In this document: piece after piece, positions 12,076-15,879 of the stretch
How positions within the stretch are numbered: the first letter of the stretch is position 1
Layout: the number at the start of each line of letters is the position of its first letter
From: an uncultured Acidipila sp.
GTDB taxonomy: Bacteria; Acidobacteriota; Terriglobia; Terriglobales; Acidobacteriaceae
Assembly (NCBI GenBank): GCA_937859835.1
Contig: CALMAN010000091.1
Location: forward strand, 4,277-40,169
DNA: 35,893 nucleotides
Reading direction: 5' to 3'
Translations under genes and position numbers: made by a program
Notes under the pieces: model-generated
Told to the model about the DNA's origin: nothing
The model's database searches: none
The model's input: the letters and a program-made list of their open reading frames with translations, nothing else

Positions 12076-13260
12076 ATGCATGGATGCTACCCTCCTGATG
12101 GGACCGACCGCGTGACCGCAACCCCCACATCGAGTGCCATCAGCCCGGACCTCCAGGCGCGCTCCGGCTTTGGCGAAGCGGGAGGGGAGCCCTCGCGCTC
12201 GTCGCGTTTTGTGCGCGCCTGCCTCCGGCAGCCGGTCGATCGCACGCCGGTGTGGTTTTTGCGCCAGGCCGGCCGGTACATGGCCGAGTACCAGGCGGTG
12301 CGCAGACACCACTCCTTGATCGACATCTGCAAACGGCCGGAGCTTGCCGCCGAAGTCACGATCACGGCGGCCGAAAAGCTGGGAGTTGATGCGGCCATCA
12401 TCTTTGCCGACCTCCTGCTGCCGTTTGAATGCATGGGGCTGCCGTTTGAGTTTCAAGCCGGCGAAGGACCGGTGGTCGCTAGCCCGGTGCGCTCGCGCGA
12501 AGCGGTTGAAGCCCTCAGGACCGATCGCGCCGGCGAGCTGGGCTACGTCGCCGAAGCCATCCGCCGGGTCGCCGCGTACTTTGCCGATCGCACCCATGAC
12601 GACACCGACGACGCCCTGGGCATCATCGGTTTTTGCGGCGCACCGTTTACCCTGGCCAGCTACATGATTGAGGGGCGGGGCTCCCGGCAGTACATCCACA
12701 CCAAGACGCTGATGTACCGCGAGCCTGCGGCCTGGCAGCTGCTGCTGGAAAAGCTTGCGGCCGTGCTGCGCGCGTATGCGCAACAGCAGGTGGATGCGGG
12801 CGCGGACGTGATCCAGATCTTTGACAGCTGGGCCGGGGCTTTGGCGCCTGCGGATTACCGCGAGTTTGTGCTGCCCGTGACTCGCGAACTGGTGCGCGGC
12901 GTGCAGGCGATGGGCGTGCCGGTGATCTACTTTGGCGTGGACACGGCTTCCCTGCTGCCCGCGATGCGCGAAACCGGGGCCGATGTGCTTGGCCTCGACT
13001 GGCGCACCCCGCTCGCCAAGGCGTGGCGCGAACTGGAATACAGCTGCGCCGTGCAAGGCAATCTCGACCCGATTACGCTGTTTGCCGAGCCGGCGCTGCT
13101 GGAGCGGCGCGTGGGGGCCATCCTGGCCGAAGCCGGTGGCCGCGCGGGCCACATTTTCAACCTGGGCCACGGCATCGTGCCGGGGACGCCGGTCGAGCAT
13201 GTGCAGCAGGTAGTGCGGACGGTGCGCGCGCTGTCACAAAAGGAGGCGGTGCATGGCTGA
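12076..13260 (+). CDS. hemE: Uroporphyrinogen decarboxylase
   Basis: RTPVWFLRQAGRYMAEYQAVR, IIFADLLLPFECMGL, GFCGAPFTLASYMIEGRGS, FDSWAGALAP, HIFNLGHGIVPGTPVEHV. Exact start uncertain; GTG at 12112 also possible. Confidence 0.97.
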   Translation: MHGCYPPDGTDRVTATPTSSAISPDLQARSGFGEAGGEPSRSSRFVRACLRQPVDRTPVWFLRQAGRYMAEYQAVRRHHSLIDICKRPELAAEVTITAAEKLGVDAAIIFADLLLPFECMGLPFEFQAGEGPVVASPVRSREAVEALRTDRAGELGYVAEAIRRVAAYFADRTHDDTDDALGIIGFCGAPFTLASYMIEGRGSRQYIHTKTLMYREPAAWQLLLEKLAAVLRAYAQQQVDAGADVIQIFDSWAGALAPADYREFVLPVTRELVRGVQAMGVPVIYFGVDTASLLPAMRETGADVLGLDWRTPLAKAWRELEYSCAVQGNLDPITLFAEPALLERRVGAILAEAGGRAGHIFNLGHGIVPGTPVEHVQQVVRTVRALSQKEAVHG

Positions 13261-14428
13261 AGAAAAACGCGCGGTGCTGCTGCTGGCCCACGGAACCCCC
13301 GATGAGCTGGCAGATATCCCGAAGTACCTGAGCAACGTGGTCAGCGGCCGGCCGATGCCGCAAACGGTGGTTGACGAGATCACGCATCGCTACGGGCTGA
13401 TCGGCAAAAGCCCGCTGACGGCGCTTACGCTGGAGCAGGGCCGCCTGCTTGGGGAAGCGCTGGGCCTGCCCGTGTATGTGGGCATGCGCAACTGGAAGCC
13501 GTACATCGCCGACACGGTCCGGCAGATGCGCGCCGACGGCATCACAGAAGCCGCGGCGATCTGCCTGGCGCCGCAGAACTCGCGCACCAGCGTGGGGCTG
13601 TACCGCCGGGCGGTGTTTGCCGAGGCCGGGGACGCTCTCCGCATCGACTTCACCGAAGGCTGGGCCGACCACCCCTTGCTGGTGCAGGCCTTTGCCGAAC
13701 GGTTGCGGCCGGCGCTGGCCGAGGCCGGCGAAGGAGGCCAGACGCCCTACGTGCTGTTTACGGCCCACTCCGTCCCCTGCCGGACCATCCAAACGCCTGC
13801 CGCCGGTGCGCCCGCCGGGCGGCCGGGGGCCAGCCTGCTGCCGGCAGCGGCCGCGGCGGTCAGCGTGCCGGGCGAGAGCGCGTCGCCTGCACCTGGCACG
13901 GAAATAGGCTCCGTCGCCGGGATCGCGCCGCCGGCGCCCGCGCACGAGCCTGACGCGTGGGTGCGCTCCTCCGCCGAGGTCGCGCAGCAGGGTGGCCGGC
14001 CCATACCGGCGCCGGACCCGTACCCGGTTGAAGCCAAGCGCACCGCGGCCCTGGTGGCCGAGCAAAGCGGGCTGGGCGCCGATCGCTGGTGCTTTGCCTT
14101 TCAAAGCCAGGGGATGGCGGGCGGCCCGTGGATTGGCCCGACCGTCGAAGATACCCTTGCGGCCATGCACGCCGGCGGCGCGGCGGTGGTGGTCCTCCAA
14201 ACCATCGGCTTTTTGTGCGACCACGTGGAAATCCTGTACGACATCGACATTGCTTTCCACGAATATGCTGAAGAGCTTGGGTTGCAGCTGAGCCGGCCTG
14301 CATCGCTGAACAACTCGCCGCTGCTGACCGAAGCACTGGTGGACCTGGCACAGCGCGGGTTGGGGCGGCTGCGTGCCGCTGTCGGGGCGGCTGCGCCCGA
14401 GCGGGAAGGCAGCCTGGCCGCGCAATGA
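13253..14428 (+). CDS. hemH: Ferrochelatase (HemH/CpfC type) carrying a low-complexity insertion
   Basis: AVLLLAHGTPDELADIPKYL, YVGMRNWKPYIADTV, FTAHSVP, DPYPVEAKRTAALVA, WCFAFQSQGMAGGPWIGPTVEDTL, IGFLCDHVEILYDIDI. Overlaps hemE by 8 nt. Confidence 0.94.
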   Translation: MAEEKRAVLLLAHGTPDELADIPKYLSNVVSGRPMPQTVVDEITHRYGLIGKSPLTALTLEQGRLLGEALGLPVYVGMRNWKPYIADTVRQMRADGITEAAAICLAPQNSRTSVGLYRRAVFAEAGDALRIDFTEGWADHPLLVQAFAERLRPALAEAGEGGQTPYVLFTAHSVPCRTIQTPAAGAPAGRPGASLLPAAAAAVSVPGESASPAPGTEIGSVAGIAPPAPAHEPDAWVRSSAEVAQQGGRPIPAPDPYPVEAKRTAALVAEQSGLGADRWCFAFQSQGMAGGPWIGPTVEDTLAAMHAGGAAVVVLQTIGFLCDHVEILYDIDIAFHEYAEELGLQLSRPASLNNSPLLTEALVDLAQRGLGRLRAAVGAAAPEREGSLAAQ

Positions 14429-15879
14429 CGAGCGATCGAAAACGTGTCGCGGTGGTTGGCGCCGGCATGGCCGGCATGGTCGCGGCGTACGAGTTGAGCA
14501 AGCGCCCGGACCTGGACCCGGTGCTGCTGGAAGCGAGCGGGCGCCTGGGCGGCACGGTTGAAACCATGCACGCGGACGGCTTCACGGTGGAGACCGGGCC
14601 CGACTCCTGGGTTTCTGACAAAAGTGCCGCGCGCGAACTGGCCGAGGCGCTGGGCCTGGGCAGCGAGCTGATCTACTCAAACGACGCCGTGCGGCGCAAC
14701 TACCTGGTCCGGGGCGACCAGCTGGTGCCCATGCCCGACGGCATGCGCATGATGGTGCCGACGCGCTGGCTGCCGATCCTCGAAAGCCCGCTGTTCAGCC
14801 ACGAAGCGCGCATGGCCTACCTGCTCGAGCCGGGCCGGGCGGCCGAGCTCAAGGCCGAAGCCCAGGCTCAGATCCAGGCCCGGGGAGAAGATTTTGACGA
14901 GCCGGTCCGCTCCTTTATCACGCGGCACTTCGGCCCCGAAGCCACGGAAACCGTTGCCGGACCTTTGCTGGCCGGGGTCTTTGGCGGTGACATCGACACC
15001 CTGAGCGCCGGCGCGGTGCTGGCCCCGTTTGTCCGCCAGGAGCGCGAGCATGGCAGCCTGATTGCCCCGGCGATGGCGCAGCTGGAACGGGATCGCGCCG
15101 AGGGCCGCGCCCCGGAGCCCGTCTTCACCACGCTGCGCAGCGGACTCTCCACCCTGATCGAACGCCTGGCGGCAGCCCTGCCGGCGGGAAGCATTCGCCG
15201 CGGTACGGAGGTTGCGAGCCTCCGGCGATGCGGAACGGGCTGGGCCTTGGCGCTGGCGGCTGCTGGCACCGGCAAGCCCGAGCGGTTTGATGCCGTGGTG
15301 CTGGCGACCCCGGCCCACGTCACGCGCGCCTTGCTCACCCCCGTCCACCCGGAAGCCGCCGCGCTGCTGGCCATGGAAGCGACCTCGGCCATTGTGGTGG
15401 CCCTGTGCTTTGCCGGCGAAGCGGCGGCGCAGCTGCGTGTGCCTCGCGGCTTCGGCTTTCTGGTCCCGCCGGGACGCGCGCTGAGCGAAGAGCCGGAGCT
15501 GCTGGCCGGCACCTTTATGGACCAGAAGTTTCCCCACCGCGCCCCACCCGGCGGCGTGTTTCTGCGCGGCTTCTTTGGCGGCCACGCCGCGCCCCGGATG
15601 ATGGGGTGGGAGGATGGACGCATCGCCGAAGCGGCGCGGCTGCAGTTCGCGAAGTTACTGGGCCCGGTGCCTCGCCCGGACCACGCGGTGGTGCGCCGCT
15701 GGCCGCGCTCGCTGCCGCAGTACGCCGTGGGGCATCCTGCCCGCATGCGAGTACTAAGTGGTTACTTGCGTGAGTTACCAGGTCTCGCGCTAACTGGCAA
15801 TGCGTATCACGGCGTAGGGTTACCGGCGCTTGTACACGGCGCACAAAAAGCAGTAAGCGCGCTGCTGCCGGCGACGTAA
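14425..15879 (+). CDS. hemG: Protoporphyrinogen/coproporphyrinogen oxidase (HemG/HemY/CgoX family)
   Basis: VAVVGAGMAGMVAAYELSKR FAD motif; GGTVETMHADGFTVETGPDSW; C-term LTGNAYHGVGLPALVHGAQKAV. ATGA overlap with hemH. Confidence 0.93.
   Translation: MTSDRKRVAVVGAGMAGMVAAYELSKRPDLDPVLLEASGRLGGTVETMHADGFTVETGPDSWVSDKSAARELAEALGLGSELIYSNDAVRRNYLVRGDQLVPMPDGMRMMVPTRWLPILESPLFSHEARMAYLLEPGRAAELKAEAQAQIQARGEDFDEPVRSFITRHFGPEATETVAGPLLAGVFGGDIDTLSAGAVLAPFVRQEREHGSLIAPAMAQLERDRAEGRAPEPVFTTLRSGLSTLIERLAAALPAGSIRRGTEVASLRRCGTGWALALAAAGTGKPERFDAVVLATPAHVTRALLTPVHPEAAALLAMEATSAIVVALCFAGEAAAQLRVPRGFGFLVPPGRALSEEPELLAGTFMDQKFPHRAPPGGVFLRGFFGGHAAPRMMGWEDGRIAEAARLQFAKLLGPVPRPDHAVVRRWPRSLPQYAVGHPARMRVLSGYLRELPGLALTGNAYHGVGLPALVHGAQKAVSALLPAT

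Follow-up and report, generated by a model that had tools for sequence, protein, structure and literature searches.

The hemE-hemH-hemY locus and its ferrochelatase

The window analysed here, a stretch of 35,893 nucleotides from an uncultured Acidipila sp., carries on its forward strand three haem genes that form an overlapping operon: hemE (12076 to 13260; TIGR01464, 393 bits); hemH (13253 to 14428); and hemY/cgoX, encoding an FAD porphyrinogen oxidase (14425 to 15879; TIGR00562, 221 bits). The end of hemE overlaps the start of hemH by 8 bases, and the stop codon of hemH is shared with the start of hemY in an ATGA overlap. Approximately 44 residues of HemE (12076 to 12207) lie ahead of its TIGR01464 match, and may represent either a wrongly placed start or an N-terminal extension.

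The product of hemH (391 amino acids) is a coproporphyrin-type ferrochelatase (CpfC/HemH). It matches the whole of the PF00762 domain (221 bits, positions 1 to 315 of a 317-position profile) and scores 142 bits against TIGR00109 (cut-off 124.6), while the top Foldseek matches of its AlphaFold2 model (built from a 51-row alignment) are the CpfC enzymes of B. subtilis and Listeria (TMt 0.85 to 0.89; 0.86 for B. subtilis 1doz). The fold, the distal histidine and glutamate, and the order of domains are those of B. subtilis and L. monocytogenes CpfC (PDB 1doz and 8at8). The catalytic distal histidine is His172 (13766 to 13768), which aligns with B. subtilis His183, and its glutamate partner is Glu326 (14228 to 14230), which aligns with B. 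subtilis Glu264; both are invariant in the 51 aligned sequences, whose loops (at the site described below) span 3 to 86 residues. The same genome encodes a homologue of ChdC/HemQ (PF06778, E = 7.9e-58), for which the best model, HemQ_actino (E = 6e-35), is matched below its curated cut-off. Given that homologue, the HemH protein is best read as a CpfC, with coproporphyrin III as its predicted substrate.

The proximal position differs from that of the structurally characterized enzymes, being occupied by His13 (13289 to 13291) where B. subtilis has Tyr13 and Listeria has Tyr12. All of the sampled HemH proteins from the Acidobacteriaceae/Terriglobales group have this proximal histidine (in the motif LLLAHGTP), whatever their loop, and retain the distal His/Glu pair alongside it; elsewhere in the phylum, the position is filled by Phe, Leu, Val or Tyr. 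The corresponding residue is Tyr in Firmicutes, Phe in Actinobacteria and Met in the human enzyme (PMC10427985). Since the residue is known to vary by clade, the proximal Tyr (Firmicutes) or Phe (Actinobacteria), which His13 replaces in the window's enzyme, is not a strict criterion for assignment as a CpfC.

A probably disordered insertion beside the catalytic histidine

The initial annotation had described an in-frame insertion of 74 residues, rich in Ala, Pro, Gly and Ser, next to the histidine motif of this protein, and that description is exact to the base: the segment occupies positions 13793 to 14014 of the forward strand (residues 181 to 254). It is preceded by AHSVPCRTIQ, which contains the catalytic-histidine motif AHSVP, and followed by DPYPVEAKRTAA, so that the loop is anchored 8 residues after His172 and immediately ahead of the following helix. 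The same annotation's expectation that a B. subtilis-type enzyme would have few residues here is borne out by the alignment to B. subtilis HemH, in which the aligned blocks end at residue 188 and restart at 193; the 74-residue loop is thus a clear difference from the B. subtilis and L. monocytogenes CpfC enzymes. Ala, Pro, Gly and Ser together make up 68% of the loop, as compared with a maximum of 35 to 46% in any 74-residue segment of the hemE, hemY and crtI-like neighbouring products or of the HemH core. The GC content at the three codon positions (0.82/0.76/0.85 in the loop versus 0.72/0.48/0.81 in the rest of hemH) is a coding pattern, reflecting codons for Ala, Pro and Gly. The inserted DNA yields only short chance matches elsewhere in the 3.13-Mb genome, and is therefore single copy; no tandem repeat was found within it, and its inverted repeats are all short and imperfect. 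A mobile or palindromic in-frame element was rejected on these grounds.

The isolate Acidipila sp. EB88 (PMC6318370), a congener whose genome was sequenced independently, has 85 residues at the site where the window's protein has 74. The two proteins are 81% identical in the core and 47% identical in the loop, and the loop-to-loop alignment score (129.5) was not reached by any of 500 shuffles (63 +/- 8). Within the insertion, an N-terminal spacer (residues 181 to 235; 13793 to 13957, forward strand) varies in both length and sequence within the genus, as seen in the gapped alignment to EB88, and is followed by 19 C-terminal residues, WVRSSAEVAQQGGRPIPAP (13958 to 14014, forward strand), in which Trp236 lies 19 residues ahead of the conserved DPY; the corresponding part of the EB88 loop, WRRSSIDAALDQSKPIPTP, likewise has a Trp at -19, a correspondence between two genomes of the genus. 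Because EB88 carries its insertion at the same site on a 4.25-Mb contig, in a form that aligns with the window's loop far above shuffled sequences, and because the inserted DNA is single copy, the possibility raised at the outset of a mis-assembly (like that of two frameshifts that offset each other and yield a spurious Ala/Pro/Gly-rich segment) is practically negligible, even for a low-complexity segment in a draft genome of 193 contigs. At its N terminus, the HemH protein of EB88 (L052, 3896 to 4000) would also seem to be extended by a Pro/Ala/Ser-rich stretch ahead of its first strand, if an upstream ATG is used.

In the AlphaFold2 model (mean pLDDT 82.4), most of the core exceeds a pLDDT of 90 and residues 190 to 249 fall below 50. 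A second model, of a relative whose loop bears the motif RPTxxERSYAL, gives values below 50 for residues 190 to 201 and 205 to 226. Low pLDDT can also stem from a shallow alignment; with the core predicted confidently in both models and much of the loop below 50 in both, the loop is most likely disordered, in agreement with its original description as ‘flexible’.

Spread of the loop and its shared site with an iron-sulphur insertion

HemH proteins drawn from genome collections provided 84 distinct loops, which form a graded series of lengths from 2 to 86 residues (median 18). In a tree of HemH built without the loop, with length counted from the RTI motif to DPY, the basal rows from Terriglobia/Acidobacteriales have 3 residues each, and loops in the main Acidobacteriaceae clade are mostly 8 to 27 residues long. 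Loops of at least 40 residues occur in three separate clades, comprising the window's protein and EB88 (75 and 86 residues by this count), the clade with the RPTxxERSYAL motif (42 to 55 residues), and the pair L084 and L109 (42 and 50 residues), and require at least four changes of state on the tree. Other HemH proteins of the Acidobacteriaceae (for example from the genera g170, Occallatibacter and Silvibacterium) share the core, loop site and composition of the window's protein, and differ from it in having loops of 8 to 63 rather than 74 residues, with clade-specific motifs of their own. The suggestion of a ‘recent expansion’ is thus partly right: the very long form belongs to the genus rather than to this genome alone, and it lies on a trend that runs through the family, with long loops in three clades. 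The loop is also not common to all ferrochelatases of the phylum, as it might have been: a phylum-wide search found that most have a short turn at the site and that some have a [2Fe-2S] insertion instead. A search of plasmids for relatives returned distant HemH proteins only, and the two that were examined have the short turn.

Expansion driven by base composition was rejected, as loop length and GC3 are uncorrelated (Spearman -0.02), and so was the idea that low-complexity tracts have swollen throughout the haem operon: none of 74 HemE sequences from the same loci has an internal insert of at least 10 residues, and HemY has only scattered inserts of up to 21. The long loop is therefore a feature of this site in HemH. 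Elsewhere in the enzyme, two Acidobacteriota HemH proteins (L124 and L125) have a low-complexity insertion of approximately 65 to 80 residues, apparently derived from a DNA repeat, one loop further on, before WQSKVG; that of L124 contains TPHSS-type repeats. A contig labelled as a Rhodoferax MAG (L073) has the same HemH loop as L071 of the Acidobacteriaceae, and is probably mis-binned.

Ferrochelatases with an internal [2Fe-2S] insertion of 22 to 34 residues are known from Bacteroidetes and Myxococcus (PMC8529089). The phylum-wide search identified several ferrochelatases with approximately 20 extra residues, and in six Acidobacteriota (L117, L118, L120, L121, L122 and L123) the pattern S[YF]HG[VL]P...C...CC...C...C, or a similar one, corresponds to the known four-cysteine insertion (PMC8529089), which sits exactly at the position of the disordered loop. 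With six such inserts in other Acidobacteriota, the turn can be regarded as a proven insertion site. Carriers of the four-cysteine insertion come from several Acidobacteriota families; the main text of PMC8529089 makes no mention of the phylum.

The window's HemH has its insertion where the [2Fe-2S] type has it, between the strand of the histidine motif (H-S/G-x-P) and the following helix, and this identity of position is what would recommend a reading of the loop as a degenerate descendant of the iron-sulphur insert. However, the window's loop contains no cysteine at all, and hence no CX(1,11)CX(1,11)C motif; it is longer, of low complexity and hypervariable in length, and its core is of the AHS type rather than the YHG/FHG type of the [2Fe-2S] enzymes. 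Cysteine is present in only one of the 84 distinct loops of the family, a scarcity which indicates that the two kinds of insertion share a site and not an origin. The basal relatives have a bare 3-residue turn, the long loops are nested among short-loop enzymes, and the four-cysteine enzymes are far more distant (with weaker matches to the family profile), so that descent from the [2Fe-2S] insert is largely refuted by the tree and, in our estimation, very improbable.

Constraint on the loop and its possible roles

At the protein level, the loop evolves approximately three times faster than the core: the pooled Nei-Gojobori dN/dS, calculated from pairs of equal length, is 0.44 for the loop and 0.13 for the N-terminal core (the pooled C-terminal value was not used, owing to indels in some pairs). 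In most pairs, the dN/dS of the loop is nevertheless below 1. In the RPTxxERSYAL clade, a spacer that is free in length and only 31% identical precedes an 11-residue motif that is 80% identical (a value somewhat inflated by the selection of the set by its pattern), followed by a tail of constant length (7 residues), while the core is 77 to 81% identical. The tyrosine of that motif lies at -11 from DPY in all 13 of the RPTxxERSYAL loops (42 to 55 residues), and every loop of at least 40 residues has an aromatic residue at a distance from DPY that is fixed within its clade (Tyr at -11, Trp at -6 or, in the window's genus, Trp at -19); a clade with loops of 28 to 33 residues has a Tyr at -7. Such a fixed aromatic residue arose in 0, 10 and 0 of 20000 shuffles for the RPT, HWPG and QNYG loops, respectively, and more weakly, in 246 of 20000, for the two sequences of the window's genus, all of these counts ignoring common descent. 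The arrangement would most naturally be taken as a freely varying spacer that leads to a short motif for anchoring or docking.

On the basis of the sequences and models, the insertion is probably a tolerated, weakly constrained disordered loop that lies outside the chemistry of an otherwise ordinary coproporphyrin-type ferrochelatase. Insertion of iron would fall to the conserved two-domain core and its residues His172 and Glu326, and the surface turn behind the strand of the catalytic histidine would be a permissive site, at which the Acidobacteriaceae appear to have repeatedly grown a disordered Pro/Ala/Gly/Ser-rich loop of varied length, reaching 74 to 86 residues in this genus. Most of the loop would then be a weakly constrained spacer that does not close off the active site and has no part in catalysis, and its last 10 to 20 residues before DPY, which keep a lineage-specific aromatic motif, could act as an anchor or weak docking point and not as pure slack. 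The conservation of that motif points to something beyond tolerated slack, and so bears against the view of the loop as simply tolerated.

That the loop is pure slack, grown neutrally at a permissive turn, and that its motif owes its conservation to ancestry alone, is a possibility that we take seriously while doubting it somewhat: the raised dN/dS, strong length variation and low-complexity composition all fit, but a dN/dS below 1 in most pairs does not, nor does a motif that has kept core-like conservation while the adjoining spacer fell to 31% identity.

Rather less likely, though it would be the main refinement of the reading as a tolerated loop, is a function as a tethered arm for docking, or as a lid: the spacer would offer the aromatic motif to CgoX/HemY, ChdC or an iron donor as partner, or turn it back onto the porphyrin cleft, and might so aid the hand-off of coproporphyrin or coproheme beside the catalytic histidine. 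The core-like conservation of the RPTxxERSYAL motif (80%, against 81% and 77% for the core) between a divergent spacer and a constant 7-residue tail speaks for such an arm, as do the four clades that each have one aromatic residue at a fixed distance from DPY, and coproheme is known to be handed on from CpfC to ChdC (PMC10427985). However, the motif differs among clades and is absent from many Acidobacteriaceae with loops of 8 to 20 residues; its RPTxxER part is not docked on the protein's own core in the monomer model of the relative; and within the genus of the window's organism, comparison with EB88 shows no clear excess of conservation in the C-terminal part of the loop over the remainder. 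Nor do long loops track the adjacency of hemY, which is not beside hemH in some long-loop genomes (L057, L084 and L109): the median loop is 18 residues where hemY is not adjacent and 9 where it is (Mann-Whitney p 0.01, uncorrected for relatedness). The earlier proposal of a ‘docking linker’ for the adjacent oxidase consequently draws no support from gene order. Many loci of the Acidobacteriaceae (for example L056, L074 and L084) yielded no hemY beside hemE-hemH, which implies that the oxidase has been moved or replaced there.

The most specific version, in which a fast-evolving tethered arm presents an aromatic motif particular to each clade next to the catalytic histidine and mediates the hand-off of coproporphyrin or coproheme between the ferrochelatase and its pathway partners, is more speculative again and we think it unlikely. 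If it were true, disordered linkers for channelling would have evolved repeatedly in the Acidobacteriaceae at the place where other bacteria acquired an iron-sulphur cluster. The turn behind the catalytic histidine of ferrochelatase is in any case a repeated site of insertion, for a [2Fe-2S] module in some bacteria and, in the Acidobacteriaceae, for disordered arms as long as 86 residues. No description of the disordered loop series was found in the literature searched. How porphyrins are handed between the terminal haem enzymes is raised as an open question in a review of the CPD pathway (PMC10427985), and the graded natural series of loops, with aromatic residues at fixed distances, offers ready-made constructs for asking whether a tethered motif takes part.

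One further feature is found just ahead of the loop, at residue 176 (13778 to 13780), after AHSVP: this residue is a cysteine for 60 of the 73 loops of at least 5 residues, and for none of the 11 shorter ones.
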